Assembly (NCBI RefSeq): GCF_048128805.1
Contig: NC_136017.1
Location: 6,436,307 to 6,500,306, forward strand
Source: Centroberyx gerrardi
Lineage: Eukaryota; Chordata; Actinopteri; Beryciformes; Berycidae
Direction of reading: 5' to 3'
Length of the DNA: 64,000 nt
Shown: piece by piece, positions 1,976 to 47,436 of the stretch
Numbering within the stretch: position 1 is the stretch's first letter
Layout: every line of letters starts with the position of its first letter
Notes under the pieces: model-generated
Databases searched by the model: none
Told to the model about the DNA's origin: nothing
The model's input: only the letters and a program-made list of their open reading frames with translations
Translations under genes and position numbers: made by a program

Positions 1976-2984
1976 TCATCTCACTCTGAAGTATTTCCAT
2001 GTTATTGTCAATGTGAACAATTGTAGAAATAAGATGATGAAGGTGAACTCATCTAAACTCAGAAGCAGCTCAGCAGGATCAGCAGCTGGTTTATCCTTCA
2101 CTACCTGACAGTCTGAGTGTTGGTTCAATCCCTGATGGGGGAGAAATGTTCTTGTTAAATCTGCAATGTCTTTAACCTGACTGGTAAACTGGCTTACAGA
2201 GCAATATACTGTATCCTGGCTCCTATAGGCCGCTCCAAACAAATACACAGCATGTCCATACTGATCCAAATAAATAACAGACAACAGTTAGTAACTGGCT
2301 CCTACAGGCAGTTACATACACAGATACTATATGTGATTGACATGATATGTGGAGAGAGGAATACCAAATGTAACACACTATATATATTAATCGTAGTTGT
2401 AGACACGTTGACATGCAAATTTAATGCGTTTAAGGCAATAATTAAGAGTAATAGGCTAGTTGCATTCAGTTGGTCATACAGTATTTGGCTACATTTACAT
2501 GTGCACAATAAAAAAAATGCAATGCTTCAGGAGGTACTTTTGGGAAACCCGTTGGACAGGAGGAGACGACTCGTGCAGTTGTTGCGCCACCGGCAATTCA
2601 GTGTTTTTGGATGAGGATACGGAGTGAGGATTGGAGCGCAGTGATAGAGACAGAACTTTAAAATGTCCCGAAGACTTATGGCCATCCAGTTTGCCATGCA
2701 CAAAATCACAGATGTCTGTGTACCTGTTTTGCAAGAGCCTGGAGCTAGTTGTGCAATATTTTATCAAGGTACCCACATAATTATAAAGTAAGATGGAATG
2801 CAGTCCAGTCGCCTTCAGATGGCTATAGGGGTTTCATCAACCGATGGGAGGGCCCTTAAGTGACAGATATTGGTAAGAATCACCCCTTAATCTAGCCCTG
2901 ATATAGGACCCTTTGGTCGGAATGGTTATTCTCTCTCCCAAAGGCTCCTGTGCTGCTCCATTAAGAATTCTCCCTACAAAAGTC

Positions 2985-3065
2985 AGAGAGATAATCAAAG
3001 ACCACTTGTGTCCAGAGGGTTGCTGGTTTGAATCCTGGACTGGCTGGGAAAATCTGGGCGAAGGA
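2985..3065 (+). repeat. SINE-like head just upstream of SLC5A7-like copy A
   Basis: GTCCAGAGGGTTGCTGGTTT followed by GAATCCTGGACTGGCTGG resembles the B-box region of a tRNA-derived SINE. It sits about 210 bp before the start codon and is shared with copy B, where an inverted extra copy makes a palindrome. Confidence 0.5.
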
Positions 3066-3271
3066 ATGAGACAACCTCTCTCCTCTCTCAGCATGGTCCC
3101 TCCCTCATTTGCTCCGGTGCAGCTACTATATGAGCGTAATACAGGGCAAAGGAGAGCCTGCGGGCCAACTCAAACACACCTGCATACATAGCCTGCAGGT
3201 TGAAGAAGTAATATACTTTTTTGCAACTGGGGAAGTAAACGGTCGCTCAAGTCATTTTTTTATAATCCACA

Positions 3272-4590
3272 ATGGCTCTCAATATACCAGGTATGATAAT
3301 GATGATGGTCTTCTACTTGCTGGTCCTGGGAATTGGCATCTGGGCATCTGTAAAATCAAAGAGGATGGAGAGAGACATCCAGGGGGGCTGGATAGAAGTG
3401 GCCTTTTTAGCCAACCGGAGGGTCACCTTGGTCACGGGAGTCTTCACAATGACGGGTGAGACTCTATTTATCTCATCTGGTCACATTTGTATTGCATTGA
3501 ACGAATGTATTGTATTTCCCCAATTTCCTCCAGGGGATCAATAAAGTGCAATACTATCTTGTCTATTATTGCACCTACTGCCTAATCTCATCTGCTCTAT
3601 TTTGCTGTGCAATGGGGTTGATGAAACACTTAGTATAGTATCATTCTGGTAAACCGGTTTTGGTGAAGTGGTCCATCAAATAAAAAGTGAAGTAGTCAAC
3701 ATGAGTATTTATTTTCTGGAAAATCTCAGGGAGACTTCTGGCATCACAACAGTTTTCACAACTATTTATTTGTCTTTGACCGCAGCACAGCACATTGTAG
3801 ATTTGTCTGAGTCTTTATAAATTCAGAAATTGAAAGGTGTTTCCCTTGAAAAACATAATCTCACTCTCTTTGGGTGATTATGCATTTTCTTTTTTTTCTT
3901 TTCCTGCTGCAGCCACTTGGGTTGGAGGTGCCTTTATCATCGGTGTTGCACAGTCGGTGTACAACCCCACTGAGGGTCTACTGTGGGCTCTTGTTCCCCT
4001 GCAAATGTCCGTTTCATTTATTATCGGTAAGATCCTCTTGAATAATGTCAGTCTGAGTGAAAAAGTGTCACTTGCTCCGTTGCCTCCTGAACTTTATCAG
4101 TCATTATTTCTTAACTGTTACTTTACTGTAACATTATGCATTAGGTGGGTTTCAAGTTTAGATGGTACACAACAGATGAGACAGTTGAGTCCTAAATTTA
4201 TATTCTCTTATATTGATGTGTACCAGTATGCTTGTGTAAATTAATTTGCTAATAAATTCAGATGAAAAACATTGCTTGTGTTTATCTCTATTGATAAAAG
4301 AGAGCTGTTCTTCAATGTGTCAGTGACAAAAATGCTTGCTCTCTCTTTCTGTCTTTTAAAGGTGGGCTGTTCTTCGCCAAGCCAATGAGAGACAAAAATT
4401 ACATCACTATGATGGATCCATTTCAGAGAAAGTATGGAAAAGTACTGACTGGGTTTCTTGCCATTATTCCAGTAATAAGTGAAGTTATCTGGATTCCTGC
4501 CACGCTGATTTCCTTGGGTAAAAGCATGTGAACACACAAAAATGCACATAGTCTCTGTCTTTCTCATTCAGATTTTCCTCATACATTTAA

Positions 4591-4623
<33 letters not shown>

Positions 4624-7600
4624 CGTGTCTGCTTGCTACAGGGGCGACCATGAGTGTCATTTTGGATTTGCCCATCAGTGTATGCATCTGGATCTCTGCT
4701 GCGGTGGCTATCATCTACACTGTTCTTGGAGGTCTCTATTCAGTCGCCTACACTGATGTCATCCAGCTTTCTCTGGTGTTTTGTAGCTTGGTGGGTATTA
4801 CGCAATGAAACAAAGAAGTTCAGCTTTGCCAATGAACTGTGTCTCTTGGAAATGTACCAACATGAGCACGTTTCACGCACATTACTTTCATAATGTATTT
4901 TGGATGCAAGGATGATTTATTCCAGCATTCTTTATTTGAATTTCGTTGTCCTCCTCTGTCCATAGTGGCTGTGTGCTCCGTTTGTTCTGGCGAGTGACGT
5001 CTACACTGATATCACCAAAACGGCATTCAACCAAACATATCAGGCCCCCTGGGTTGGCCAGCTTGGGCCTGATAAAGCCTGGAGGTGGATTGATCATTTC
5101 CTAGTAATGGTAAAGTGAAGTAACAGAAAATTGGTTTAAAATTTGGCATGCTTGAGCCTGCTAGACCACATAGCTTATGAATGTGAATTATTCTAATGTT
5201 GCAGTTTTGCCCTTTACTCCTTGCACTTGACTGTAAAATTGTAATCCTGTAAACTGTAGACCTTTTTACCTTTTTACTCTTGTTTTCCAACATACACCTT
5301 TATTTATGCTGCTGCAATGACAGTTTCCCCTCAGCAATCAGATAATTTCCTAGTGATGGTAAGGTGAAGTAAGGTAAATTGGTTTATAATTTGGCATGTT
5401 TGAGCCTGCTGGACCACATAGCTTATCATCAACTTTCAGATGTCCTGCATTAAAGCCCCTATGTGTAGAATTTGTATCTGATTATATCATCCTCCAATTA
5501 ATTTTGATACCATAAAAGTTTGTCATTAGAAAACTGAGACCATTGTGGAGAAAACTGGTCAGTCTGTTGATTCTCTGTGCGGGGGTACGAACTGGCACGA
5601 AGTGCCGTACTGACTTACGGCAGAAACTCAAACCAAACCAGGAAGAAAACAGACACAGTTTGAATGCAGACTAGTAGCTTAGATTGAACAGCGTGAAGCT
5701 AATCAATATGGCAGATAGTGGTAACATGGAAGACAGGACTCTCTGCTGCACCCTCTGCAACAAAACAAAACAAGAAGCCTGTAACAGAAGAGGCTAAAAC
5801 AGCTAAGTTCCCGTTCCCCGGCCCCCCGGAACACGGCAGAGTTAACCGTGGCCGGGTGTTCACTCGCCGGGGGGGGTCATCCCTATGTTCCCTCAGCCCT
5901 GTGTGTTTAGGCAAGGAGCTCGTATGGTGGAGGTTAGGGTTAGGGTTGCTTGCGGTCGAGTGGTTCCAGGGCAGATGAGGTGGTTGGCTTGAGGCATGAG
6001 GTCACTGAGGTTAAGGTTAGAGCAAGCTTGCGGTCAAGGCTGTCAGAAGGTAAGTTGGGATAGGGTTGAGGGAACATAGACACGCTCCCCGGAGGAGAGC
6101 TAGACGGGAGCTGAAGAGGTTTAAGACCGACACAGAGCTGGCTTTCTTTCTCCTACCATAAATCCTCTAATATTGGCCCGGGTCTTTATTTACCTCAACT
6201 GCAGAGGGTACCAGGCCTTTATAGGAAGCAGGCATACATTAGAGACAGGCCTTTATTTCTAATTCCCTCTGTTTGATAAGTATATTTGCTCATATTTTAG
6301 TACGAAGCCTCCTTGTTTTCTGATCTGCTTCTGTTGGGGTACGTTAGGTAGACGTTTTTTTGTTACTACAATGCATTACGATAATTACGGTAATCGACGA
6401 CGGCATGCTCCAGAGACTTCCGCTGGCCGAGCCATCTTGTGGCACTTGTACGTTACTACAAACTACGGTTACAAACAGGCACCAGGAGTTTACCGGTATC
6501 CACCGTTGTTTGCATGTAAGCTGAAGCTAACTGAAGCTAGCTGAACCTGGGCGCCGATGTGTTCCCGGTGAATCTCGGCCGACCAGGATATAGGAACTAA
6601 TGCTTGAGCTACAGTTATCAGCAGTATTTTGTTTACATATTGTGGCTGTATGAAGCAAAATCAACAATTTTTAAATCCTACACATAGGGGGCACATAGGG
6701 AGGGTTAGGGTTAGTGGAGGCCTGGTGTCTGTAATTGATCTGGTATTTGCTGTATGAGACTGCAGTGCTCTGAGACGCTAGAAGACACAACAGTGGATCA
6801 TTACCAGCAACCAATAAAGTCATAGGAATATTTCCAGGGTGCTATTGAGCCGACCCTTGCACTCCTTACCATTGGTTACTTGTAATCTACAACGTGAAGT
6901 GAAGCTCATTCTGCTGTTGCACTGTTGCTCTTTACTCCTTGCACTTGACTGTAAAATTGTAAACTGTAGATACCTTTTTACTCTTTGTTCTCCAAAATAA
7001 ACACACAGTTTCACCTCACCAACTGATAAAGTTTATCTCATTGAAAGATGCTCTGGATAGGAGCATCAGCTAAATGCCTAAAATGTAATATGTACAAAGG
7101 AGATGGCTTGGTCTGTTTCACATCTTTCATTTTTCAGAGTGTGGGGAATATGGCAATTCAAGATTTTCATCAACGGACGCTCTCCTCCAGTTCCACGTCC
7201 ACAGCCAGAATCATCTGTTTTGCAGCAGCAGGCATCGTCATCATTCTTGGAATTCCTCCCGCGTTGATCGGAGCCGTCGCAGCCTCAACAGGTAAACCAG
7301 ACGGGTCGGGCAGCAGGGTGGTGTAGTGGGTAGGGGGGCCGTCCTACGACCAGAGGCTCCACCAAGCATCCGGCCTGCTGAAGTGTCCTTGAGCAAGACA
7401 CTGAATCCTGACCAGCTCTCTCTTCATCAGCACAGCACTCTAACCAGCAAAAAATCTGTCTCCATTCAACACAACGGCCAAAGGCGCACGCAAAACCTTT
7501 CTTGCGTGATAATGTGAACACTCCTTAATGCACAGAAAAACAGCGAGATGAAATCTAAGCTGTCAATCATCCCCACCTGCTGCACAGCTCTACCACCTGC

Positions 7601-10600
7601 ACAAACTATACACAGAGCAGCTTCTCACTAACCTTGATTCTGATAGATAAGTGGGGTGAACAAGCTGAGTCCAGAACTTGCAAGACCTGGACCATTAATA
7701 AGGGGCCCCAGACTTAACTGCCTTAAATAAAAACTTCCTAGTAGATTTCCTAGTAGATTCAAATATTCCATTCCCTTTCTTTTATCTCTTTTCGGCACCA
7801 ACTCTTATCTGTTTTGGGCTTTGTGTGTGTGTGTGTGCATGTGCAGCAGCCAAATTGGTACTTATCGATATTTTTTATGGTCTACGGTATAAACACACAC
7901 TAGCTGCAGCTGTAGCTATGTTGATTACCCACTTGTCCTTTTTATGGTCATGCTGGTGGCCACCCTAAATGTCTGTAATATTGTGTGCATCTTCCTATGA
8001 AGCGAGCCATTTATAATGGCTGCTTCTGTGGCTTACAATAAACAATTTGCCTTGGCCATACTGCACAGGTGGCTATTGAAACCAATGTGGTGACCTTAAA
8101 ACTAGCTGTAAGCTAGTTTTCCCCTTTTTCATTCTTTGTTTGTTGTCGTACATCTTCAGTGTTTTAATCACTTTGCTTCTACACTTTATCTCTGCAAAAC
8201 AAAACTAAACTAAAGTAGGCTAAACCATCTGACTAGTATCTCTGAAACCTGCATGTTTCCAGTCAGTTTCCTCTTACGTTTCAGACTGGAACTTGACCTC
8301 ATATGGTTCTCCTTCTCCATATGAGCGAGGGGAGGCGGCTATGGTATTGCCCATCACCCTTCAGCATCTTACCCCGACTTACATTTTCGCTTTTGGCATC
8401 GGAGCTATTGCCGCCGCTGTGATGTCATCTGCTGACTCTTTCCTCTTGTCTGCCACCTCCATCTTCACCACCAACATCTACCGGACCATCAGGAGTCAGG
8501 TGCAAGGAACAGGAGGGCGAAAATGGCAGACTGGAGCTTTAGTTACAAGCATTTCTTGGAAGCCGAGCTGTTCTGGAGGCAGAGATTATTTCATTGAGTT
8601 AAATCTCAACCAAAGAACCACAGTTTTCAAGACAGTAAGTTAGCTAACTGTCAAACTTGAATGACAAAGGAGTTCTGGGAATTAAAAAAAAAAAAAGTAT
8701 ATCATAAAATATAGTTTATTTCTGTTTTTCCTTCTTTCTTTCATTAATTCATGACCATGGCATTCATGATCTTCGAAGTTCAACAGTCTAGCTAACTAGC
8801 TTGATAGCGCTAGGCTAGTAGTATGCCTGATTTAGTCTTGGAAGCTCAGCTAGGCTAACTAGCTACACTAAATGATCTCACACAAATACGTGAAATGAAC
8901 ACGAACTCTAAAACGACGATTTACGTGCTGTGTATTATGGGAAAATAACGTTTCTCCACCACAAACTGAAGGTTCCCCCGCAATGAATTTACATATGTTC
9001 CTCCACCACAAATTTTAATTTGTTCCTCAGCCACGAATTTAACTACGTCCCAAAGCTTGGATAACGGTTAAATTTAGGCAAGTAAGTTTGGTTAAGGTTA
9101 GGGTAAAGATTATGGTTAAGTAGGCAAGTAAAACAACTTGGTTAAGGTTTGGGTTAAGGTTATGGTTCAGCAACTAAAACAACTTGGTTAAGGTTAGGGA
9201 AAGGGCTTGGTCATGGTTAAATAAGAAAAACGTTCGTTAAAAATTAAAATGTGGTTGAAATGTCCTTTGAAAACGCTGGGAATTGAACCGCTCGAAGGCA
9301 AGCGCATACGCCCGTCCACCATGCTACATAAATGTGACACTACTTCCTGTTTATTTTCATGTCTCCTTCACGTAACCGCTTCATGCTGGGAATATGTAAA
9401 TTTAACACTTTAACAAGTCGTGTTCATTTGACGTTTTTCTGAGAGATTAGTCTGATAATGTAGTATATAGACTGCATTTTTTCAGCAAGAGCACTAGGTT
9501 TCATAATATTTGCAACCTCCTCTTTTACCCCTTGTCTTTTCACTGGGTAACAATAAATTGCTTAAAGTCACTAGAAGTCACCAGATGATATCATACGCCA
9601 CATTGCATATGAATATATTTGCTACCCTGATCCTGATCTCCCCCTGCTCACAGTGGAGGGAACCCTATGTCGTGTATAACCCTGTCCAGGCAGGATTATT
9701 GCTGAACAACATTGGTAATGTAGTTTAAATCATTACACGCCAGTTATTTTAATGAACGATTGGGACAGTGTATTACTTTATTACTCCCATAAATTACTAA
9801 AAAACTGTGGTTCTTGATAATTTCCTCTGTCCACAGAGTGTTAACTCAACCAATGAGATTATTTCTGCCTCCAGAGCAACTCCGCCACTGAGAAATGTTT
9901 GCAGAACTAAAACTCAATTTGTACAAAGTGTAGCTCAATAGTTGGATCACTATCCAAGGTTAGGGGTTTCCTTTGTTGTGTCGCTCAATAATATTGCCAG
10001 GGTTAAGGGTTTGTTTCCCACTAGGGCCTCCCATGCTAAAAAACTCATGGTACTGTTAAGCACTTTGGATAAAAATGTCCACCAAATGGCATGGAGAGAG
10101 CAGTAATCATTAGCTACCATTAGCCCACAAAATGATTTACCCTTGTCTTCCATACAGCTAATTCTTGCCATTTAATCAGAGATTACTTTGTTTGTTGGGT
10201 AATGTTGGAGATTTAACTTCCACCCAAGAATTACTGTATGTGCTCTTCTCTTTAGGCATCGGATAAAGAGTTGCAGTGGGTGATTCGTGTCTCCATAGTG
10301 GTTGCAGGGCTTGTGGGTACATCCCTCGCCTCCCTGGACAACAGCATCATGGTGTTCTGGATCCTGGGCTCGGACTTTAGTTACACCGTCATGCTCCCCC
10401 AGCTGATTTGCGTCCTCTTCTGCGAGGTTTCCAATGGCTACGGGGCTATCACAGGCTATGTTGTTGCCGTGGTGATGAGAACTTTGTGTGGAGAGCCGGT
10501 GTTGGGACTCCCTGTCGTTCTCCATTTCCCGGGTTGCACTTTGGAGGACGGCGTTTACGTTCAGTACTCTCCTGTCAAGACCATCTGCATGCTCTCTAGT

Positions 10601-10807
10601 CTGGTCTCCATTCTGTTGTTTTCCTACATGGCGTCACTCCTGTTTAACAAGGGGATCCTTGCGGAGAAGTGGGACGTGTTCAAGGTGAAATCCCAGGGAG
10701 CGCCAACGCCGCCGGATGCCAAAGAGGATGAGGGTGACGATAAGACTGAGGTTCAAAATGAAAATGGCAACTCTGTTTTAGAGCCAATGCTGGATACAAG
10801 ATGCTAA
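3272..10807 (+). CDS. slc5a7: SLC5A7-like sodium-coupled transporter, copy A
   Basis: Member of the SSF/SLC5 family, closest to CHT1, which imports choline into cholinergic neurons with Na+ and Cl-. Eight coding exons: 3272-3455, 3913-4026, 4362-4517, 4642-4790, 4966-5109, 7138-7291, 8285-8499, 10256-10807. All have GT/AG borders and matching phases, giving 555 aa (human CHT1 is 580). Family blocks seen: FTMTATWVGG (58-67), [10 protein letters not shown] (100-109), [11 protein letters not shown] (180-190), MSSADS (347-352, with the Asp of human Asp349) and CGEP (450-453, with the Glu of human Glu451). Trp64 and Trp143 match human cage residues Trp62 and Trp141, but human Tyr91 is Met93 and Trp254 is Ile256. 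The C-tail is short and ends [14 protein letters not shown] context is CCACAATGG. It is a paralogue rather than a certain orthologue; substrate is inferred. Confidence 0.93.
4591..4625 (+). repeat. (GT)n(GC)n tract before exon 4 acceptor, copy A
   Basis: Alternating purine-pyrimidine DNA, GT repeats followed by GC repeats, ends 16 bases before the exon 4 acceptor at 4641. Copy B has the same tract, longer by a few repeats (about 39712-39751). Such tracts can adopt Z-DNA and are length-variable. Confidence 0.85.
5341..5440 (+). repeat. Duplicated exon 5 end and donor site in intron 5, copy A
   Basis: TTTCCTAGTGATGGTAAGGT and the next 70 bases repeat the real exon 5 end and donor (5095-5180) about 248 bp downstream. 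Copy B has only one such segment, and its following sequence matches the second A segment. The decoy donor GTAAGG is as good as the used one (GTAAAG). Confidence 0.75.
5878..6085. repeat. MITE-like repeat with TATGTTCCCTCA inverted ends
   Basis: The ends TATGTTCCCTCA and TGAGGGAACATA are inverted. The interior (GCATGAGGTCACTGAGG ... GCAAGCTTGCGGTCAAGG) matches the interior of the element at 35645-35900. It lies in intron 5 of copy A and is absent from copy B at this place. It also carries a short TTAGGG run at about 5936-5949. Confidence 0.6.
7305..7445 (+). repeat. tRNA-derived SINE in intron 6, copy A
   Basis: GCAGCAGGGTGGTGTAGTGG followed by a degenerate B-box area and AAGTGTCCTTGAGCAAGACA is the typical head and body of fish tRNA-derived SINEs. 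The same element is in copy B at 42415-42555. Confidence 0.6.
8549..9920 (+). mobile_element. Transposon-like element with inverted ends in intron 7, copy A
   Basis: The left end at about 8549 (CATTTCTTGGAAGCCGAGC) and the right end near 9895 (GAGAAATGTTTGCAGAAC) are inverted copies of one another. The same pair of arms, close together, forms the 170-bp fold-back in the unc80 intron at 56835-57005. The interior holds a GGTTAAGGTTAGGG-rich simple repeat (about 9060-9230). Copy B carries the same insertion at about 43400-44820, so it predates the duplication. No transposase was found. Confidence 0.55.
9915..10100 (+). repeat. tRNA-derived SINE in intron 7, copy A
   Basis: TGTAGCTCAATAGTTGGATC is an A-box-like head, and the tail TAAGCACTTTGGATAAAAAT ... 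ACCAAATGGCATG is the usual fish SINE tail. It is shared with copy B at 44825-45000. Confidence 0.65.
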
Positions 10808-11585
10808 TTTTGTTTCTTTTGACTTTGTTTTTTTTTTTTGTTTCTGTAATGTGATTGTTGGTGTGTGGTGGTAGGCCTGTCAGAAATGATTATTGGAAAT
10901 GATTACTGATGATGCAAATGCTTTATGTAAAATGGTTATGACACTGGCTGGCTTGGGGCGCCTTGACAAATTCTTATGGCTTATCACACGAGTGTCACAT
11001 ACATCCTTATCAGTGTAGCCCAGGGTGAATTTCAATTAGTTTTATATTAAAAAGAAAAAGAAAAAAAGAAGAAGAGTTCAGTTCTAAGTTGGATTGAAAT
11101 GCAATTAGTTCTGCATGTGTATTACAGCCTCACTAATATCCAAAACGCTAGTTATTTGATATCTATTGGTCATTAAATCCCTGATCTTCCAATCAGAATT
11201 CAGAGTGGTGGGACTTGGAAGAGCTAACTGCAAAACTACATAGCATGCAGACAAGAACCTGTTGAAACAGTAGAGAGTAAAGGGCTATCCAACACCATAA
11301 TATCCTAACTGTGGTTTACAACATGTTGGACCTACCTGTGGGGAATTATGTGTGAACGCTGTTAAGTTAAAGCTTGACAATAATTTTTTTAAGTGTTAAT
11401 GTTATGGTCTAAACTAGCCCCGTTGGGACTGGCACAACACTGCGTGGCTGCCAGTCCTGAGTCCTTGCATTAAAAACCTTGGCGGGAAAGGTTAAAGACT
11501 GAATTTTGCCAATCTGACAAGCTTTCTGGATTCCTTGAACCCTTTTCTGTTACACAAGTAAATCATATTGTGTGAAAGTATTTGA

Positions 11586-11591
11586 AATAAA
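11586..11591 (+). terminator. Candidate poly(A) signal of SLC5A7-like copy A
   Basis: AATAAA lies 780 bp after the stop codon and is followed within 30 bases by a T/G-rich stretch (CACCTTTGTGTGGCTTGTCC). It is the best placed signal in the 3' flank. The corresponding segment is missing from copy B. Confidence 0.5.
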
Positions 11592-12384
11592 GTATAAAAT
11601 GTCACCTTTGTGTGGCTTGTCCTAGTTGTTTTCATATGGATATCTTAGAAATGGCTGCCATTCTTCTTCTACGCCTCTTCCCTGTGTGGAAAACGTGCTC
11701 TTTGCTGCCCCCCTTTGCATCTTTTCTTTTGTTTGTTTGTACATGCTTCGGAAGTACAACTTTTTCCTGTGTCTGGACCCGCCTGCAGTCGGCCTCACCC
11801 GCCATTTTCCTGCATCGCCTGCATTCCATTTGGTAACGATTTCTCCTTGCCTCGCGTCTCATCCTCGACTCCTCGGTCAAAGGTCACGGGGGAAACGAGG
11901 ACAAGATGCGAGGAGGAGAGGAAGCGAGTGAACGGGCCCTGTCAATTGGAACATGCTCACATGCGCCATATTGAAGTGACGTTTGAAGTGTGGCGTTTGA
12001 GGCGCCTCGCGCACAGTATCTCCTTCCCCTCCACAAATGACAGCTGTCTAGTTTTATCCACATAGAAATGTTTCACAAATTTCAGATTAATGTGTAATTC
12101 ATCTCTGTCCGCTCCTAATGAGCCTCTTCTTCCTCATGGAGGCAGAACGCCTAACAGAAATGTATTAAGCTGATGGGTGTCTGTGCGTTACACCTGAGTA
12201 CCCTCCGACCACGCCTCATTGGGTCAGCGAGGAGACGACAACAAACATACTCTATAATTTAGGAGTAAACACAGTAAACTTTGAGAAGTTGGATTTTAGC
12301 CCTATAGGCAGGCGGTGGGCTATATATACATACTAATATATACCATAGGCATATCCAGGAAAACATTCTTGGCAAAAAAAGAAA

Positions 12385-12472
12385 AACCACGTGGCTTAAT
12401 GGATAAGGCATCTGACTGCGGGTCAGAAGACTTCTGATCAGAAGACTGAGGGTTGGACTCCCTCTGTGGTTG
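12385..12472 (+). pseudogene. tRNA-Arg pseudogene
   Basis: The acceptor halves AACCACG and TGTGGTT and an A box like that of the other two tRNA copies remain. The anticodon loop is changed (CTGCGGG), about 15 nt resembling a second anticodon arm (CTTCTGATCAGAAGA) are inserted, and the invariant T-loop C of the B box is G (GGTTGGACTCC). It sits at the same place in unit A as the intact tRNAs in the other flanks. Confidence 0.85.
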
Positions 12473-12854
12473 GCTTTCTATATTACAGCCTAACTCACTG
12501 ATATCCAAAACGGTAGATATTTGATATTGGTCATTAAATCCCTGATCTTCCAATCAGAATTCAAGAGAGGTGGGACTTGGAAGAGCTAACTGCAAAACTA
12601 GGTAGCTGCAGACAAGAACCTGTTGAAGCAGTAGAGACTAAAGTCTTTCTTTAGCAGGTAGCCTATTGCAATTGTGATTGCCGTTTACTGGAAACTGAAA
12701 TTCATTATGAAAGTAGGAGTCAAAATGCATATAAAGCACAGAAGTGCTTAAACAGGAACACTAAGTGCTTTAAGAATTCACTCCTTTCATGTTCATGTTC
12801 AGAAATATTAATAAAGAAAAACATTTTTTTGCACACCTAAAAGTCCACTGTATA

Positions 12855-12915
12855 GCTCAGTGAAATAAACAGGTGGCTATGGTGCACCAGGATCCTGGTT
12901 CAAACCTCAAGTCTT
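12855..12915 (+). repeat. SINE-like head in unit A flank
   Basis: TATAGCTCAGTGAAATAAAC and TCCTGGTTCAAACC are A- and B-box-like. The same segment occurs in unit B at 47668-47730. Confidence 0.45.
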
Positions 12916-13125
12916 GTCATTTTCACATCATGTAACAACAATTATAAGCTGATGAATGTGAGGTACAAGCAATGTGGCTGTTGCTCAGAGATGCAGTAAT
13001 ACAGCCGATCATTAGCAGTTTGAGCACGTATAAATAAGTTGATGAATGAGATGGAAGAAGTCTTTGGCTATGGTTGCTGGTTTGACTCCTGGCCCTCTCA
13101 CTCATGTTATTGTTGTCAGTAGTGT

Positions 13126-19588: not shown

Positions 19589-20098
19589 GAGTACTGTCCC
19601 CTATCATTGAGTACTTTCCTCAATAATTGAGTGCTGTCTCCTATAATTGAGTACTGTCCTCTATCATTGAGTACTGTCCTCTATAACTGAGTACTGTCCT
19701 CTATCATTGAGTACTGTCCCCTATAATTGAGTACTGTCCTCTATCATTGAGTACTGTCCCCTATCATTGAGTACTGTCCTCTATAACTGAGTACTGTCCT
19801 CTATCATTGAGTACTGTCCCCTATCATTGAGTACTGTCCCCTATCATTGAGTGCTGTCCCCTATAACTGAGTACTGTCCTCTATAATTGAGTACTGTCCC
19901 CTATAATTGAGTACTGTCCTCTGTAACTGAGTACTGTCCCCTATAATTGAGTACTGTCCCCTATAATTGAGTACTGTCCTCTATCATTGAGTACTGTCCC
20001 TATAATTGAGTACTGTCCCCTATAATTGAGTACTGTCCTCTATCATTGAACACTGTCCCCTATAACTGAGTACTGTCCCCTATAACTGAGTACTGTCT
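19589..20098 (+). repeat. 20-bp minisatellite, about 25 copies
   Basis: The unit is GAGTACTGTCCCCTATAATT with variants (CCTC/CCCC, ATAATT/ATCATT/ATAACT). Spacing is a strict 20 bp except one 19-bp unit near 20000. It lies in the probable first intron of the CD38-like gene and directly abuts a Tc1-like remnant. Confidence 0.95.
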
Positions 20099-35900: not shown

Positions 35901-37049
35901 CTCCCTACATGCTAGTGTAGCAGACAGATTTCTGCTCTATCTGTTTCAATTGGAATCAGAATTAATTGCGTAATAAATGTCCGAGCATAACCACGTCCAA
36001 TTCAAACCCAATATCAGGAAAGTTTACAAAAACTTAAATGACAATATTTCAAATAATAATATTTCTAATACTTTTTAGATGCTTACTATTATGTACATAA
36101 GACCCTAAATTACATAGTTCGAAGGTTATTGTGGATTTGGGTTTCCAGAGGCTTTAATGATGAACTTCTTTTGAATGTCTTTTTGTGACAGTGCATGTAT
36201 AGAATCTATGGTGTGCTTCTGTAAAAGGTAATTCTGTTGCCTTCCTCTCCTCTTTTGCCAGAAACTAACCTGAGATGACATTCCTCCAGCTCCTGACAGA
36301 TCTGGATATTTATGTATCTGTACATGTAAGTCTAGGCCTCCTTGCATATGTGTCCACCTGTATATGTACATCTATATATTTATATGTGCTTCATTTTTGA
36401 CTTTATTATATATACTTTTTTTTTGTGAACTACGACATAGATGGTGGATTGAATATTAAATAGGTAGTAAATTGTGCATGTGAATGTGTACATTACTTGT
36501 ACTTTTTTGTAACTCCTGTATCATTTGACTGAGTGCCACTCTGATTAACCTGATTAGGTGCCTGTGGGCAGCCACTCCCTATATAAGTGGATTGTGGAAA
36601 AAATATTTGCCTGACGAAGGTCTCAGTACTGAAACGTTGCTTATTTTCTTTGCAAGTATAGACAGTGTGTGGGAATCTCTTCTAATGCTCTGCCAGAGAC
36701 AGAACTTTAAAATGTCCCGAAGATTTATAGCTATCCGGTTTGCCATGCACAAAATCACAGACAGCTGTGTACCAGTTTTGCAAGAGCCTGGAGCAAGATT
36801 TAATCCAGGTACCCACATAATTATAAGGTACATGGAAGGTGGAATGCAGTCCTGTCGCCTTCAGATGGCTGTAGGGGTTTCATCAACTGAGACGGAGAGC
36901 CCTTAAATGACAGATATTGGTAAGAATCACCCCTTAATCTAGCCCTGATACAGGACCCTTTGGTCGGAATGGTTATTCTCTCTCCCAAAGGCTCCTGTCC
37001 TGCTCCATTAAGAATTCTTCCTACAAAAGTCAGAGAGGACGAAAACCCT

Positions 37050-37150
37050 CTGGACACAAGTGTCCAGAGTCCAGTCCAGGACTCATACCAGCAACCCTCT
37101 GGACACAAGTGTCCAGAGGGTTGCTGGTATGAATCCTGGACTGGCTGGGA
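37050..37150. repeat. Near-perfect palindrome upstream of SLC5A7-like copy B
   Basis: GTCCAGAGGGTTGCTGG and its inverse CCAGCAACCCTCTGGAC face each other across a CACAAGT centre, about 37 bp per arm. Copy A has only one arm (2985-3065). It is about 250 bp before the start codon. Confidence 0.85.
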
Positions 37151-37390
37151 AAATCTGGGCAAAGGAATGAGACAAGCTCTCTCCTCCCTCAACAGCTACT
37201 GTCATGGTCCCGCCCTCATTTGCTCCGGTGCAGCTACAGTATATGAGCATAATACAGGGCATTATCTGAAGAAGAGCCTGTGAGCCAACTCAAACACACC
37301 CACACACCCCTCTGCAGGTTGAAGAAGTAATATACTTTTTTGCAACTGGGGAAGTAAACGGTCGCTCAAGTCATTTTGTTATGATCCACA

Positions 37391-39709
37391 ATGGCTCTCA
37401 ATATACCAGGTATGATAATGATGATGGTCTTCTACTTGCTGGTCCTGGGAATTGGCATCTGGGCATCTGTAAAATCAAAGAGGATGGAGAGAGACACCCA
37501 GGGGGGCCGGATAGAAGTGGCCTTTTTAGCCAACCGGAGGGTCACCTTGGTCACGGGAGTCTTCACAATGACGGGTGAGACTCTATTTATCTCATCTGGT
37601 CACATTTGTATTGCATTGAACAAATGTATTGTATTTCCCCAATTTCCTCCAGGGGATCAATAAAGTGCAATACTATCTTGTCTATTATTGCACCTACTGC
37701 CTAATCTCATCTGCTCTATTTTGCTGTGCAATGGGGTTGATGAAACACTTAGTATAGTATCATTCTGGTAAAACAGTTTTGGTGAAGTGGTCCATCAAAT
37801 AAAAAGTGACATTTTCTGGAAAATCAGAGGGAGACTTCTGGCATCACAACAGTTTCAACTATTCATTTGTCTTTGACCGCAGCACAGCACATTGTAGGTT
37901 TGTCTGAGTCTTTATAAATTCAGAAATTGAAAGGTGTTTCCCTTGAAAAACATAATCTCACTCTCCTTGGGTGATTATGCATGGATTTTTTTTTCTTTTC
38001 CTGCTGCAGCCACTTGGGTTGGAGGTGCCTTTATCGTCGGTGTTGCACAGTCGGTGTACAACCCCACTGAGGGACTACTGTGGGCTCTTGTTCCCCTGCA
38101 AATGTCCGTTTCATTTATTATTGGTAAGATCCTTTTGAATAATGTCAGTCTGAGTCACAAAGGGGCACAGGAAGGTTTTATTTCCAAAGTGAGATATCTA
38201 CCATGTGAAAAAGTGTCACTCAGGGCAAACACATGTATGGTGAAAAAAGAGAAAGCTACCCGAATTAAAAATACCCCTCCCTGATTTCCTTTCACTTTCA
38301 CTTATCGGTGTGTCGCAGATTATTTTCTCCACCCAGAGCTGTTCCAGTTCTGTTGACTCAAGTAGCTAGAAAAGTTGAAGATGATTTAACTTTATGCAAA
38401 TAAATACAAAATTTCATCGTACTGACTTAGCTCCTATCGGTACTACACGCCAACATCTTTGGACGAGCTATGCTAGCTCTCGTGATCTAAAGGCACGGTC
38501 GGCAAAACAATGCTCGTCGAACAAGTGTTGCAACACGTAACCAGTGACGTAATGTGAAGTCCTCGTAACATGTCCTGACAGTTGAGTAGAATTTTTTGCT
38601 CCATGCAGTTCACTCATATGAGCCTGACAGAAATACACTGTAGGAATCGTTAAGGAGATTTGTCCGTCACCCCCCCCCCCCCCTTGCTCAGTCTTGCTCA
38701 GAGTTGGTACACATTTACCATTTTCACAGATTTACTGTAACATTATGCGTTAGATCAGGCCTATTCAACTGGCGGCCCGCGGGCCAACTCCCCCGCCAAT
38801 CAAGTCACACCGGCCCGCCGATCAGTTCTGTTTACAAATAAATGAAATTTAAAACCTGAATTGAAAGAAATCACGCGAATAACGGGCATTTTTGCCACAA
38901 TAAATCCTTCAAACCAGCAGAGCGCTCCTGTGTAATGTAAACTAGATCCTGTTCTACATACTCCGGTACGGTAGGTGCAGTGTTGCCAACTTGGCGAATT
39001 TGTCGCTAGACTTAGTGACTTTTCAGACCCCCCTGGCGACTTTATTTCTCAAAAGCGACTAGCGACAAATCTGGTGAGTTTTTCTGACCATGGGAAGCAA
39101 TGTTAATGTGTTGAATCCCAAAGCATTTGGCAATAAATTGGTATGGCTGATGCCGGTTTGCTCTACTTGCCTGTCGAGGTCTGACGATCACAGAGCAGGG
39201 ACTGTAGGATAGGGTCCACTTGTAATTGCTACCGGCGTACGCCGAAACTATCAACGCTTAAAAAAAGAAAAGTTGATGCCGAAAATCGTCAATTCAACAG
39301 CGACTGGACTGAGAAATATGTATAAAGAAAAAGAAAAAAATAAAGAAAATGAAATTAAGCACTTGGCCTAATTATTTAAAGAATGCCTATTTATGCTTGT
39401 GTTTATCTCTGTTGATAAAAGACAGCTGTTCTTCAATGTGTCAGTGACAAAAATGCTTGCTCTCTCTTTCGGTCTTTTAAAGGTGGGCTGTTCTTCGCCA
39501 AGCCAATGAGAGACAAAAATTACATCACTATGATGGATCCTTTTCAGAGAAAGTATGGAAAAGTACTGACTGGGTTTCTTGCCATTATTCCAGTAATAAG
39601 TGAAGTTATCTGGATTCCTGGCACGCTGATTTCCTTGGGTAAAAGCATGTGAACACACAAAAATGCACATAGTCTCTGTCTTTCTCATTCAGATTTTCCT
39701 CATACATTT

Positions 39710-39750
<41 letters not shown>

Positions 39751-42700
39751 CGTGTCTGCTTGCTACAGGGGCGACCATGAGTGTCATTTTGGATTTGCCC
39801 ATCAGTGTATGCATCTGGATCTCTGCTGCGGTGGCTATCATCTACACTGTTCTTGGAGGTCTCTATTCAGTCGCCTACACTGATGTCATCCAGCTTTCTC
39901 TGGTGTTTTGTAGCTTGGTGGGTATTACGCAATGAAACAAAGAAGTTCAGCTTTGCCAATGAACTGTGTCTCTTGGAAATGTACCAACATGAGCACGTTT
40001 CACACACGTTACTTTCATAATGTATTTTGGATGCAAGGATGATTTATTCCAGCATTCTTTATTTGAATTTCGTTGTCCTCCTCTGTCCATAGTGGCTGTG
40101 TGCTCCGTTTGTTTTGGCGAGTGACGTCTACACTGATATCACCAAAACGGCATTCAACCAAACATATCAGGCCCCCTGGGTTGGCCAGCTTGGGCCTGAT
40201 AAAGCCTGGAGGTGGATTGATCATTTCCTAGTGATGGTAAAGTGAAGTAACAGAAAATTGGTTTAAAAATTGGCATGCTTGAGCCTGCTGGACCACATAG
40301 CTTATCATCAACTTTCAGATGTCCTACATTAAAGCCTCTATGTGTAGAATTTGTATCTGATTATATCATCCTCCAATTAATTTTGATACCATAAAAGTTT
40401 GTCATTAGAAAACTGAGACCATCGTGGAGAAAACTGGTCAGTCTGTTGATTCTCTGTGCGGGGGTACGAACTGGCACGAAGTGCCGTACTGACTTACGGC
40501 AGAAACTCAAACCAAACCAGGAAGAAAACAGACACAGTTTGAATGCAGACTAGTTGCTTAGATTGAACAGCGTGAAGCTAATCAATATGGCAGATAGTGG
40601 TAACATGGAAGACAGGACTCTCTGCTGGACCCTCTGCAACAAAACAAAACAAGAAGCCTATAACAGAAGAGGCTAAAACAGCTAAGTTCCCGTTCCCCGG
40701 CTGCCGACAGAGAGTGGGGGTACAGAAGGGAAAGAAACTATCATAGCCACATACATTTGTCAGCAGACGATGGCGTTCCTTCCAGCCCTGACCTGTGTGT
40801 GCAGGTTATAATTGCGTCGTTTAGTCCGCATTTGCCGTCTGGTTCCGACGTCCTGTGTCCGGTTCATGTGTGCTGCCTTCTGCCAGCTTGATCGGCCACA
40901 TTTAATACAATTCCATACTCGGATTACGTTACTTGATTTGTTTTTAGTCTAGTTTGTTAGTGGTAGCATTTTCCATTCAGTGCAGCTCGTAGCATCAGAA
41001 TAGTAAATGTTGGATAGGCTATGTTCACAACGACAGCGATCCCCCAAACATCTGCTAACCGGAATTCTCACAATAGCAAACTACTTCATAGTACAATGCT
41101 GTCATTCAGAATAATATAGGAACTAATGCTTGAGCTACAGTTATCAGCAGTATTTTGTTTACATATTGTGGCTGTATGAAGTGGGGTATCACAAACACTG
41201 CTAAGAGGTTGCAAAGATGTTTGCGACTGTCTTTTTTTTGCACTACCACTAGGAGTCGCCAAAATCAACAATTTTCAAATCCTACACATAGGGACTTTAA
41301 GCTTAAAGGCATAATATGTAACATTTCCGCATTAAAATAAATAAAAACAACTAGACCTATGTTATATATTTTTTTGAGTTGTGTACTTACATTATCCCAA
41401 ATGTTTCCAACAATGTTCAAACCCAGAGAAATCCGTAATTTTATTCAAGGTAACTGTGCGTTTCATTTGGTCGCCTGTCAATGGCGTCATATCCCCTTTA
41501 CCCCCTAACCTCCGGGGAAACACGGGAAACACCAGATGATACGTCAGAGTGAGGAAGGAAGTCAGCGAACTAGCCACTCTAGCCACTCTGTGTTTTTTTT
41601 CATTCTATTGTTTTTATTGCTCACTCGTGATGGATCACGATGATTCATTCCCGTTTGCTGCGTGTTCTGTCGCTGAAGCTGTCCCCGTAAAAAAAACTCC
41701 CATGATCCCACGCTACTTCACGACGTCATCAAACTACGTCTTTTGTTATTGTTTTGATTGAGAGACCCCTAGCGGCAGAAATTACATACTGTGCGTTTAA
41801 AGCATGAGGGTTAGGGTTAGTGGAAGCCTGGTGTCTGTAAATGATCTGGTATTTGCTGTATGAGACTGCAGTGCTCTGAGACGCTAGAAGACACAGCAGT
41901 GGATCGTTACCAGCAGCCAATAAAGTCATAGGAATATTTCCAGGGTGCTATTGAGCCGACCCTTGCACTCCATTGGCTACTTCTAATGCTGTTGATCTAC
42001 AACGTGAAGTAAAGCTCATTCTGCTGTTGCACTGTTGCTCTTTACTCCTTGCACTTGACTGTAAAATTGTAAACTGTAGATACCTTTTTACTCTTTGTTC
42101 TCCAAAATAAACACACAGTTTCACCTCACCAACTGATAAAGTTTATCTCATTGAAAGATGCTCTGGATAAGAGCATCAGCTAAATGCCTAAAATGTAATA
42201 TGTACAAAGTAGATGGCTTGGTCTGTTTCACATCTTTCATTTTTCAGAGTGTGGGGAATATGGCAATTCAAGATTTTCATCAACGGACGCTCTCCTCCAG
42301 CTCCACGTCCACAGCCAGAATCATCTGTTTTGCAGCAGCAGGCATCGTCATCATTCTTGGAATTCCTCCCGTGTTGATCGGAGCCGTCGCAGCCTCAACA
42401 GGTAAACCAGACGGGTCGGGCAGCAGGGTGGTGTAGTGGGTAGGGGGGCCGTCCTATGACCAGAGGCTCCACCAAGCATCCGGCCTGCTGAAGTGTCCTT
42501 GAGCAAGACACTGAATCCTGACCAGCTCTCTCTTCATCAGCACAGCACTCTAACCAGCAAAAAATCTGTCTCCATTCAACACAACGGCCAAAGGCGCACG
42601 CAAAACCTTTTTTGCGTGATAATGTGAACACTCCTTAATGCACAGAAAAACAGTGAGACGACCTCAGATGAAATCTAAGCTGTCAATCATCCCCACCTGC

Positions 42701-45700
42701 TGCACAGCTCTACCACCTGCACAAACTATACACAGAGCAGCTTCTCACTAACCTTGATTCTGATAGATAAGTGGGGTGAACAAGCTGAGTCCAGAACTTG
42801 CAAGACCTGGACCATTAATAAGGGGCCCCAGACTTACCTGCCTTAATAAAAACTGATGTCCTAGTAGATTCAAATATTCCATTCCCTTTCTTTTATCTCT
42901 TTTCGGCACCAACTCTTATCTGTTTTGGGCTTTGTGTGTGTGTGTGCATGTGCAGCAGCCAAATTGGGTTAGGGTTAGGGTTAGTAGGGTTAGGTTTTGT
43001 TTGTTGTATTTCTTCAGTGTTTTAATCACTTTGCTTCTACACTTTATCTCTGCAAAACAAAACTAAACTAAACTAGGCTAAATCATCTGACTAGTATCTC
43101 TGAAACCTGCATGTTTCCAGTCAGTTTCCTCTTATGTTTCAGACTGGAACTTGACCTCATATGGTTCTCCTTCTCCATATGAGCGAGGGGAGGCGGCTAT
43201 GGTATTGCCCATCACCCTTCAGCATCTTACCCCGACTTACATTTTCGCTTTTGGCATCGGAGCTATTGCTGCCGCTGCGATGTCATCCGCTGACTCTTAC
43301 CTCTTGTCTTCCACCTCCATCTTCACCACCAACATCTACCGGACCATCAGGAGTCAGGTGCAAGGAACAGGAGGGCGAAAGTGGCAGACTGGAGCTTTAG
43401 TTACAAGCATTTCTTGGAAGCCGAGCTTCTGGAGGCAGAGATTATTTCATTGAGTTAAACCTCAACCAAAGAACCACAGTTTTCAAGACAGCAAGTTAGC
43501 TAACTGTCAAACTTGATTGACAAAGAAGGAGTTCTGGGAATTAAAAAAAAAAAAAAGTATATAATAAAATATAGTTTATTTCTGTTTTTCCTTTCTTTCA
43601 TTAATTCATGAACATAGCATTCATGATCTTCGAAGTTCAACAGTCTAGCTAACTAGCTTGATAGCGCTAGGCTAGTAGTATGCCTGATTTGGTCTTGGAA
43701 GCTCAGCTAGGCTAACTAGCTACACTAAATGATCTCACACAAATACGTGAAATGAACACGAACTCTAAAACGACGATTTACGTGCTGTGGACACGTATTA
43801 AGGGAAAATAACGTTTCTCCACCACAAACTGAAGGTTCCCCCGCAATGAATTTAAATATGTTCCTCCACCACAAATTTTAATTCGTTCCTTAGCCACAAA
43901 TTTAACTACGTCCCAAAGGTTGGATAACGGTTAAGTTTAGGCAAGTAAGTAAGTTTGGTTAAGGTTAGGGTAAAGATTATGGTTAAGTAGGCAAGTAAAA
44001 CAACTTGTTTAAGGTTTGGGTTAAGGTTATAGTTCGGCAACTAAAACAACTTGGTTAAGGTTAGGGAAAGGGCTTGGTCATGGTTAAATAAGAAAAACGT
44101 TTGGTAAAAATTAAAATGTGGTTGAAATGTCCTTTGAAAACGCTGGGAATTGAACCGCTCGAAGGCAAGCGCATACGCCCGTCCACCATGCTACATAAAT
44201 GTGACACTACTTCCTGTTTATTTTCGTGTCTCCTTCACGTAACCGCTTCATGCTGGGAATACGTAAATTTAACACTTTACGTTTCACCAACACGTAAATT
44301 GGCTGTTAACAAGTCGTGTTCATTTGACGTTTTTCTGAGAGATTAGTCTGATAATGTAGTATATAGACTGCATTTTTTCAGCAAGAGCACTAGGTTTCAT
44401 AATATTTGCAACCTCCTCTTTTACCCCTTGTCTTTTCACATGGTAACAATAAATTGCTTAAAGTCACTAGAAGTCACCAGATGATATCATACGCCACATT
44501 GCATACGAATATATTGGCTACCCTGATCCTGATCTCCCCCTGCTCACAGTGGAGGGAACCCTATGTCGTGTATAACCCTGTCCAGGCAGGATTATTGCTG
44601 AACAACATTGGTAATGTAGTTTAAATCATTACACGCCAGTCATTTTAATGAACGATTGGGACAGTGTATTACTTTATTACTCCCATAAATTACTAAAAAA
44701 CTGTGGTTCTTGATAATTTCCTCTGTCCACAGAGTGTTAACTCAACCAATGAGATTATATCTGCTTCCAGAGCAACTCCGCCGCTGAGAAATGTTTGCAG
44801 AACTAAAACTCAATTTGTACAAAGTGTAGCTCAATAGTTGGATCACTATCCAAGGTTAGGGGTTTCCTTTGTTGTGTCGCTCAATAGTATTGCCAGGGTT
44901 AAGGGTTTGTTTCCCACTAGGGCCTCCCATGCTAAAAAACTCATGGTACTGTTAAGCACTTTGGATAAAAGTGTCCACCAAATGGCATGGAGAGAGCAGT
45001 AATCATTAGCTACCATTAGCCCACAAAATGATTTACCCTTGTCTTCCATACAGCTAATTCTTGCCATTTAATCAGAGATTACTTTGTTTGTTGGGTAATG
45101 TTGGAGATTTAACTTCCACCCAAGAATTACTGTATGTGCTCTTCTCTTTAGGCATCGGATAAAGAGTTGCAGTGGGTGATTCGTGTCTCCATAGTGGTTG
45201 CAGGGCTTGTGGGTACATCCCTCGCCTCCCTGGACAACAGCATCATGGTGTTCTGGATCCTGGGCTCGGACTTTAGTTACACCATCATGCTCCCCCAGCT
45301 GATTTGCGTCCTCTTCTGCGAGGTTTCCAATGGCTACGGGGCTATCACAGGCTATGTTGTTGCCGTGGTGATGAGAACTTTGTGTGGAGAGCCGGTGTTG
45401 GGACTCCCTGTCGTTCTCCGTTTCCCGGGTTGCACTTTGGAGGACGGCGTTTACGTTCAGTACTCTCCTGTCAAGACCATCTGCATGCTCTCTAGTCTGG
45501 TCTCCATTCTGTTGTTTTCCTACATGGCGTCACTCCTGTTTAACAAGGGGATCCTTGCGGAGAAGTGGGACGTGTTCAAGGTGAAATCCCAGGGAGCGCC
45601 AACGCCGCCGGATGCCAGAGAGGATGAGGGTGACGATAAGACTGAGGTTCAAAATGAAAATGGCAAATCTGTCTTAGAGCCAATGCTGGATACAAGATGC

Positions 45701-45703
45701 TAA
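37391..45703 (+). CDS. slc5a7: SLC5A7-like sodium-coupled transporter, copy B
   Basis: Second intact CHT1-like gene. Exons: 37391-37574, 38010-38123, 39483-39638, 39769-39917, 40093-40236, 42248-42401, 43143-43357, 45152-45703. Exon lengths and phases equal copy A, giving 555 aa. By my reading it differs from A at 12 residues: I36T, W40R, I71V, A146G, A291V, V346A, F353Y, A357S, V417I, H462R, K528R, N544K. All SSF motifs and the two substituted cage positions (Met93, Ile256) are the same. No frameshift or stop is present, so both genes look functional. The cluster V346A/F353Y/A357S flanks the conserved Asp351, which corresponds to human Asp349 near the sodium and substrate region. The 3' flank lacks the poly(A) signal of copy A; another AATAAA occurs at about 45947. 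Confidence 0.93.
38150..39390. mobile_element. Copy B-specific insertion in intron 2
   Basis: Intron 2 is 1359 bp in B and 335 bp in A. The extra DNA includes a poly-C tract (38670-38683) and a TTGCCAACTTGGCGAATTTG-type segment common in fish mobile elements. No ORF with recognisable motifs was seen, and exact ends were not resolved. Confidence 0.6.
41302..41802. mobile_element. Copy B-specific MITE in intron 5
   Basis: The ends TTAAAGGCATAATATGTAA and TTACATACTGTGCGTTTAAA are imperfect inverted repeats. The segment is absent from copy A, where flanking sequence joins at about 6688-6700. About 500 bp, non-coding. Confidence 0.65.
42415..42555 (+). repeat. tRNA-derived SINE in intron 6, copy B
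   Basis: Same element as at 7305-7445 in copy A, with GTGTCCTTGAGCAAGACACT in the body. It predates the duplication. Confidence 0.6.
42968..42994 (+). repeat. Short telomere-like tract replacing intron sequence, copy B
   Basis: 27 bp of TTAGGG-type repeats lie exactly where copy A has about 270 bp (7860-8132). Left flank CAGCAGCCAAATTGG and right flank TTTGTTTGTTGT are common to both copies. Confidence 0.8.
44825..45000 (+). repeat. tRNA-derived SINE in intron 7, copy B
   Basis: Same SINE as at 9915-10100, with the tail AAGCACTTTGGATAAAAGTG. Confidence 0.6.
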
Positions 45704-47363: not shown

Positions 47364-47436
47364 AACCACGTGGCCTAATGGATAAGGCGTCTGACTTCGG
47401 ATCAGAAGACTGAGGGTTCGACTCCCTTCGTGGTTA
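47364..47436 (+). tRNA. tRNA-Arg (anticodon TCG)
   Basis: 73 nt with a fully paired acceptor stem (AACCACG/CGTGGTT), A box TGGCCTAATGG, anticodon loop CTTCGGA (anticodon TCG) and B box GGTTCGACTCC. It differs from the copy at 226-298 only in a few stem and loop bases. It lies 1.66 kb after the stop codon of the transporter gene, within the duplicated flank. Confidence 0.9.

Follow-up and report, generated by a model that had tools for sequence, protein, structure and literature searches.

Can a protein of the CHT1 family still carry choline when two of the four residues of its choline cage have been replaced? This question is raised by a window of 64,000 nucleotides (the whole stretch of DNA analysed) from the fish Centroberyx gerrardi (assembly GCF_048128805.1, contig NC_136017.1, positions 6,436,307 to 6,500,306, forward strand), in which two genes, designated copy A and copy B, encode relatives of the human choline transporter SLC5A7/CHT1. 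The initial annotation had placed Met at Tyr91 and Ile at Trp254 in both proteins and had proposed an intact sodium symporter that has moved to another substrate or to low choline affinity. The sequence comparisons described here suggest, with a rough probability of 0.67, that A and B are intact members of a fish SLC5A7/CHT1 branch that arose by gene duplication, in which the Na+ machinery is kept and the pocket is rebuilt, and that they most likely carry another small organic solute.

Substrate pocket and ion sites of the two copies

Copy A is an eight-exon gene on the forward strand (3272-10807) encoding 555 amino acids; its spliced translation contains no internal stop and all seven introns are of the GT-AG type. 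Exons 2 to 6 make up the span 3913-7291. Copy B, also of 555 amino acids with an open frame, lies head to tail with copy A on the same strand (37391-45703). The two proteins differ at 12 amino acids, and the synonymous and non-synonymous divergences (dS and dN) of the pair are 0.022 and 0.009 over 517 codons, corresponding to eight synonymous and 10 non-synonymous changes. A duplication of about 10 kb contains the two copies; by self-comparison, its pieces are 88-98% identical. Copy A matched the SSF domain PF00474 over residues 45-441 (E 1.7e-32, 113 bits, cut-off 22.8), as expected of an SLC5 sodium:solute symporter.

In a search of Protein Data Bank (PDB) sequences, copy A aligned over residues 1-516 with human CHT1 (8j74; E 1.1e-146, 493 bits) and also matched the bacterial transporter sfCHT (9rws; E 1.7e-79). 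The argument about the pocket is drawn from alignment to the experimental structures of these proteins and from contact residues listed in the literature. Residue numbers below are those of the human protein, obtained from this alignment (window number minus 2 through residue 366 and minus 1 beyond). The alignment with 8j74, ungapped from residue 40 to 365, showed Met93 over Tyr91, Ile256 over Trp254, Trp64 over Trp62 and Trp143 over Trp141. The corresponding codons in copy A are ATG at 4005-4007, ATT at 7156-7158, TGG at 3918-3920 and TGG at 4490-4492, and those of copy B, in the order Trp64, Met93, Trp143, Ile256, lie at 38015-38017, 38102-38104, 39611-39613 and 42266-42268. The replacements noted in the initial annotation were thus confirmed by both alignment and codons, and no aromatic residue was aligned with position 91 or 254 in either copy.

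According to the excerpts of PMC11589582 used here, the choline site of human CHT1 consists of W62, Y67, Y91, W141, W254 and W406, among which W62, Y91, W141 and W254 form the cage around the ammonium group. Copies A and B carry W, F, M, W, I and W at the six positions, so that two of the four cage residues of a high-affinity CHT1 are kept. Further pocket changes shared by both copies are Y67F, E73Q, G66A, Y80E, P253A, Y403M and Y407I. The published contacts of the inhibitor hemicholinium-3 in the human protein, as listed in the excerpts, are W62, E73, Y91, W141, L246, L247, W254, W406 and Y407; both copies have W, Q, M, W, V, M, I, W and I there, that is, three identical residues out of nine. 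In human CHT1, Y407A is reported to weaken hemicholinium-3, and Y403 is described as a lid residue.

In contrast to the pocket, the Na+ sites were kept. The excerpts of PMC11589582 assign the side chains of S346 and S347 to Na2 and those of D188, D349 and S350 to Na3, with A343 and V63 binding through the backbone. All five side chains were identical in A, B and every one of the 18 paralogues of this genome to which A and B belong (see below), in keeping with an SLC5 symporter; A343 was altered in one of the 18 and V63 was replaced by Ile in three. The path residues R47 and Q259 were unchanged in 18/18. The Cl- loop reads VGGAF in A and B versus VGGGY in the human protein; W141 is kept, and the loop ligands are backbone nitrogens. 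We infer that Na+ loads through the kept sites in A and B, and that Cl- probably does too. The claim of an intact sodium symporter gene with a kept MSSAD motif therefore stood, both frames being open and copy A having MSSADS. GEP, which had also been read as a motif of the Na+ region, lies outside the ion-site residues named in the excerpts of PMC11589582 and so gives no evidence for ion binding.

Published mutants bear on what such a pocket could do. Alanine at W62, Y91, W141, W254 or W406 of human CHT1 abolishes uptake (PMC13220886, in part), and alanine mutants of the choline-site residues lose transport with surface protein not significantly reduced (PMC11589582). The tabulated choline Km is 12 µM for human CHT1 and 402, 271 and 358 µM for W62F, W141F and W406F; the Vmax of these mutants is about halved, and their Km is raised 22- to 33-fold by the printed table, whereas the text of the paper says about 10-fold (PMC13220886). 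Y91F chiefly lowers Vmax (PMC13220886). Because mutants at the same positions lose uptake, micromolar choline uptake by A and B is, by analogy, unlikely. Loss of high-affinity choline uptake, as the proposed change of substrate or affinity implies, gains indirect support from the same sources, namely the inactive alanine mutants of Y91 and W254 and the raised Km of the phenylalanine mutants of W62, W141 and W406. Excerpted structural work places W62 and W141 next to the bound Cl- of human CHT1; since A and B retain both residues and most of the Cl- loop, they may handle the substrate end that faces Cl- as CHT1 does.

A clade of 18 paralogues in one genome

The 779-Mb genome was searched for further members; it is the single genome surveyed, and the locus counts are lower bounds. 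Single-exon searches agreed on 20 loci (20 matches for exon 6, 20 strong and three weak for exon 7, and 20 strong and one weak for exon 4). At least 20 members were modelled by spliced alignment, with near-constant exon lengths, and 20/20 were open from ATG to stop. Two of them, C1:12075137-12079970 and C10:25424617-25431095 (hereafter C1 and C10), are ordinary CHT1 genes that keep all six aromatic residues and Y407. C1 scored 940 bits against human CHT1, compared with 493 for copy A, and C10 is 89.5% identical to C1. In both, a short insertion in exon 8 was modelled as an intron, giving nine exons; this stretch is open and lies outside all positions used here. The remaining 18 genes, A and B included, formed a single clade apart from ordinary CHT1 with a support of 100/100. 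The clade was recovered again at 100/100 when ten bacterial sequences were added, the bacteria splitting from the fish genes at 100/100. The exact position within the clade is less certain for two long-branched paralogues, C24 and C4.

The residue counts showed that the cage change, which had been taken as a trait of the window pair, is instead one end of a change across these 18 genes. Trp254 was found in 0/18 paralogues (Tyr in 10, Phe in four, Ile in two, Leu and Thr in one each). Tyr91 was found in eight, the other ten having Ala (four), Met (two) or one of four further residues occurring once each. The alignment of position 91 is less sure in six paralogues that have a one-residue insertion in exon 2 (C15c-f, C2a and C2b), and in C15c the residue is G or S depending on the alignment; A and B lack the insertion. 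Position 67 was Phe in 16/18 and Tyr in two, and position 62 was Trp in 16/18 and Phe in two. Trp141 and Trp406 were present throughout, and Trp254, Pro253 and Tyr407 were each gone from all 18. Counted over the four cage positions, aromatic residues numbered four in eight paralogues, three in six and two in four, A and B falling in the last group.

The lost residues are conserved far outside the fish. Thirty-two bacterial relatives from six phyla (by titles) plus one uncultured bacterium were collected by a genome scan with a four-protein alignment; the same scan with copy A as the sole query found no bacterial relative. The scan selects on two short motifs. W62 lies in one of them, which means that its conservation is partly selected, while positions 67, 91, 141, 253, 254 and 406 are unselected. 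Residue counts used all 32 relatives and the trees ten of them. W62, Y67, W141, P253, W254 and W406 were present in 32/32 and Y91 in 31/32, the remaining sequence having Phe. The Na side chains were kept in the bacteria, except for one relative with Ala at D349. As Trp254 and Tyr91 are this constant in bacteria and the two ordinary CHT1 genes of the fish retain them as well, their loss in A and B is, on this comparison, more than chance.

In 100 alignment columns, at least 33 of the 34 sequences from bacteria and ordinary fish genes carry the same residue. Of these columns, 54 were unchanged in all 18 paralogues and 16 were changed in at least 16 of them; 11 of the latter lay within ten residues of Y91, W141 or W254. 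Changes in each of 517 columns were also counted by ancestral reading on a tree inferred with the pocket columns left out. Position 254 was read as Tyr in the ancestor of the paralogues, followed by five further changes within the clade (rank 58 of 517, with 45 tied). Position 91, which is Tyr in 33 of 34 sequences outside the clade, changed seven times within it (rank 11 of 517, with 17 tied).

Three side observations were made in the survey. The two paralogues with Phe for Trp62 are C16:8092113-8100879 and C16:8109659-8117816; W62F raises the tabulated Km of human CHT1 33-fold. The last eight residues, EPMLDTRC, are the same in A, B (window 10781-10804 and 45677-45700) and C15c, and similar ends occur in several other paralogues and not in ordinary CHT1 genes; this tail could be a sorting signal. 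Exon-1 copies of the window gene were also detected at C21:6423088-6423270 (93% protein identity) and C21:5790909-5791091 (90%). Genome searches for exons 2-3, 4, 6, 7 and 8 gave no match beside either, and the two are apparently partial duplicates.

Possible selection on the pocket and possible functions

Non-synonymous changes inside and outside the pocket were compared in ten gene pairs, nine of paralogues and C1/C10. Because some genes occur in more than one pair, the comparisons are not independent. The pocket was defined as the 70 codons within six residues of six published contact residues. This definition was set after the differences between C2a and C2b had been inspected, so the p-values are not blind; as a partial guard, only two of 516 shifts gave a value as high for that pair. 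For C1/C10, the ordinary pair, the counts were 1.0 non-synonymous change on 160 pocket sites versus 81.5 on 1008 sites elsewhere, and pocket synonymous change was high though pocket non-synonymous change was nearly nil. In the young pair C2a/C2b (C2:36376257-36395201 and C2:36421201-36449225), the counts were 26.2 on 160 pocket sites versus 21.3 on 1002 elsewhere, so that 26.2 of 47.5 non-synonymous changes fell in the pocket, including Asn/Asp at 91 and Arg/Ser at 243. For C16a/C16b the counts were 9.0 on 158 versus 5.0 on 1000. Overall, six of the ten pairs showed a pocket excess at p < 0.05 (C16a/C16b, C3c/C3d, C15e/C15f, C2a/C2b, C2a/C15c and C15a/C15b); no excess was found at this level in A/B, C3b/C3c, C15d/C15e and C1/C10. 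These results suggest diversifying selection on the pocket in some paralogue pairs, but not in A/B.

In the reading favoured here, a gene duplication would have founded a fish SLC5A7/CHT1 branch that retained the Na+-driven machinery while its pocket was rebuilt. The kept Trp62 and Trp141 would still grip the substrate at its Cl--facing end, with the opposite side of the cage now aliphatic. Such a pocket would be expected neither to bind choline at micromolar concentrations nor to bind hemicholinium-3 well. The cargo would be another small organic solute taken up by Na+ coupling, possibly an osmolyte or nutrient of epithelia, although any choice of solute is a guess.

Several observations weigh against this reading. 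Eight of the 18 paralogues have aromatic residues at all four cage positions, W254 being replaced by Tyr or Phe, and for this reason some members of the clade may retain weak choline uptake. The Cl- loop is altered at human G66 (Ala), though its ligand there is a backbone nitrogen. Function in the paralogues is judged by analogy with human mutants that, in the excerpts, carry Ala at 91 and 254 or Phe at 91, not Met or Ile, and Met can contact cations weakly. Pocket-changing selection between A and B was considered and rejected, the counts being 2.0 on 162 pocket sites versus 8.0 on 1015 elsewhere. In all six pairs with a pocket excess, pocket dS was also above that of the rest of the gene, significantly so in C3c/C3d and C15e/C15f. 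Pocket dN significantly exceeded whole-gene dS in only two of nine paralogue pairs, C2a/C2b (0.185 versus 0.036; pocket dS 0.081) and C15e/C15f (0.104 versus 0.036; pocket dS 0.166). As dS varies among exons, gene conversion outside the pocket exons could yield part of the excess, and patchy conversion of this kind may lie behind it.

A stronger form of the proposal, that all 18 genes constitute a fish transporter family in active specialisation, in which a fixed Na+ engine is combined with a pocket repeatedly rewritten by diversifying selection for differing new substrates, with A and B (W-M-W-I) among the furthest from choline, is tentative and we regard it as doubtful. A low-affinity choline transporter, in which the kept Trp62, Trp141 and Trp406 would bind choline at hundreds of micromolar and be useful where choline is plentiful, seems unlikely. 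It would fit the three kept Trp residues, the intact Na side chains and the human Phe mutants at three pocket positions, which still transport with a Km of 271-402 µM; however, Ala at Y91 or W254 singly abolishes uptake and both positions are non-aromatic in A and B, and the loss of the lid residue Tyr407 and of Pro253 from 18/18 exceeds what a loss of affinity requires.

Two other explanations appear very improbable. The proteins might be ligand-gated sensors that respond to a ligand with a Na+ current but do not take it up, as described for human SGLT3 of the same family (PMC6171906, in part); a substrate site that diverged while the ion sites were kept is consistent with this, but R47 and Q259 of the transport path are retained in all 18 paralogues. 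The cage change might equally be decay in redundant copies drifting to loss under relaxed constraint. This would agree with dN/dS values of 0.36-1.18 in nine young pairings versus 0.08 in the ordinary pair, and with the presence of partial copies (exon-1-only fragments and lone matches to exon 2 or 3). Against it stand the 20 open models with near-constant exon lengths and the Na side chains intact in 18/18. In the tree-based count, 53 of 97 columns fixed outside the clade show no change inside it, and deeper splits have dN/dS values of 0.15 (A/C16a), 0.19 (A/C15a) and 0.26 (C15a/C15b), with 0.45 for C2a/C15c. Uptake of another solute through a rebuilt pocket remains the reading we prefer.

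Window features, known relatives and meaning

The features of the window are listed in the table. Besides the transporter pair, it contains exons of the neighbouring gene unc80; three further open reading frame segments tested by Pfam gave no match. Three tRNA-Arg calls lie at or beside the duplicated block (225-300, 12385-12472 and 47364-47436), of which the second is odd: it has 88 bases and the anticodon GCG, and it could be a degenerate copy of the TCG gene. Self-comparison also revealed an array of tandem repeats, each about 20 bases long, at 19589-20097.

Table. Positions (window coordinates) of the transporter genes, the duplicated block and the neighbouring gene
Feature	Position	Strand	Basis or remark
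Copy A, exon 1	3272-3455	+	Start codon at 3272; spliced translation, splice sites
Copy A, exon 2	3913-4026	+	Trp64 (human W62) kept; Ala68 (G66), Phe69 (Y67), Gln75 (E73), Met93 (Y91)
Copy A, exon 3	4362-4517	+	Trp143 (human W141) kept
Copy A, exon 4	4642-4790	+	Asp190 (human D188, Na3) kept
Copy A, exon 5	4966-5109	+	Spliced translation, splice sites
Copy A, exon 6	7138-7291	+	Ala255-Ile256 replacing human Pro253-Trp254
Copy A, exon 7	8285-8499	+	Na2/Na3 motif MSSADS kept at 8422-8439
Copy A, exon 8 and stop	10256-10807	+	Trp407 (W406) kept; Ile408 (Y407), Met404 (Y403)
Copy B, exons 1-8	37391-37574, 38010-38123, 39483-39638, 39769-39917, 40093-40236, 42248-42401, 43143-43357, 45152-45703	+	Cage residues as in copy A
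Duplicated block, left copy	2646-13069	+	Self-comparison; matches 36695-47889 in pieces
Duplicated block, right copy	36695-47889	+	Self-comparison
unc80 exons (neighbouring gene)	58459-58641, 58861-59115, 59732-59971, 63253-63492	-	Matches to Pfam UNC80_C

Compared with known systems, copy A shares the Na2/Na3 side chains, W62, W141 and W406 with human CHT1 (8j74, 9bfi), but A and B differ from it by Y91M, W254I, Y67F, G66A, P253A, E73Q, Y403M and Y407I. The bacterial sfCHT (9rws) and the 32 bacterial relatives, apart from the one with Ala at D349, also have the Na side chains, W62, W141 and W406 in common with copy A, whereas sfCHT keeps both Y91 and W254. Copy A is 46% identical to the ordinary fish gene C1, and exons 2-6 of C1 and C10 have the same lengths as its own (114, 156, 149, 144 and 154 bases), but the full cage is retained in the ordinary genes. 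Human SGLT3/SLC5A4, as excerpted, offers an earlier case of an SLC5 protein whose substrate role has changed, though it belongs to the sugar branch. Two genes, slc5a7a and slc5a7b, are reported in zebrafish (PMC5515482, in part). Several SLC5A7 co-orthologues are mentioned for stickleback in a single clause, and no residue or function analysis accompanies them in the excerpt of PMC9309457; these possibly belong to the same expansion as the 18-gene clade. Among the open-access papers listed by searches on SLC5A7 or choline transporter paralogues in fish, none described the cage change in its title or the opening of its abstract, in a library that leaves most subscription journals outside its scope.

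Two gill studies, both cited from excerpts, may involve such genes. In Atlantic salmon, return to constant light induces the SLC5A7 transcript LOC106602131, with a strength that depends on how long the fish had been kept on short days before, and a target of quantitative PCR named SLC5A7 is discussed there as choline uptake (PMC7141700). The forward primer for salmon SLC5A7 (20 bases) reads RWDVFQ in its first frame. At this site WD is present in 17/18 paralogues, the exception being C24, whose sequence could not be aligned; the two ordinary genes have YD and human CHT1 has LD. The primer thus fits a paralogue, but 20 bases compared with the ordinary genes of C. gerrardi are weak evidence. In pupfish, SLC5A7 is among the genes of organic osmolyte synthesis and transport that changed six hours after seawater transfer, and may be either a paralogue or an ordinary gene (PMC8438076).

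The paralogues may be filed under choline transport in work on fish, and such annotations mislead if the paralogues carry no choline. At the same time, the family constitutes a natural series of CHT1 pockets with four, three or two cage aromatics over unchanged Na side chains, which lets one ask which wall of the cage sets the choice of substrate and drug.

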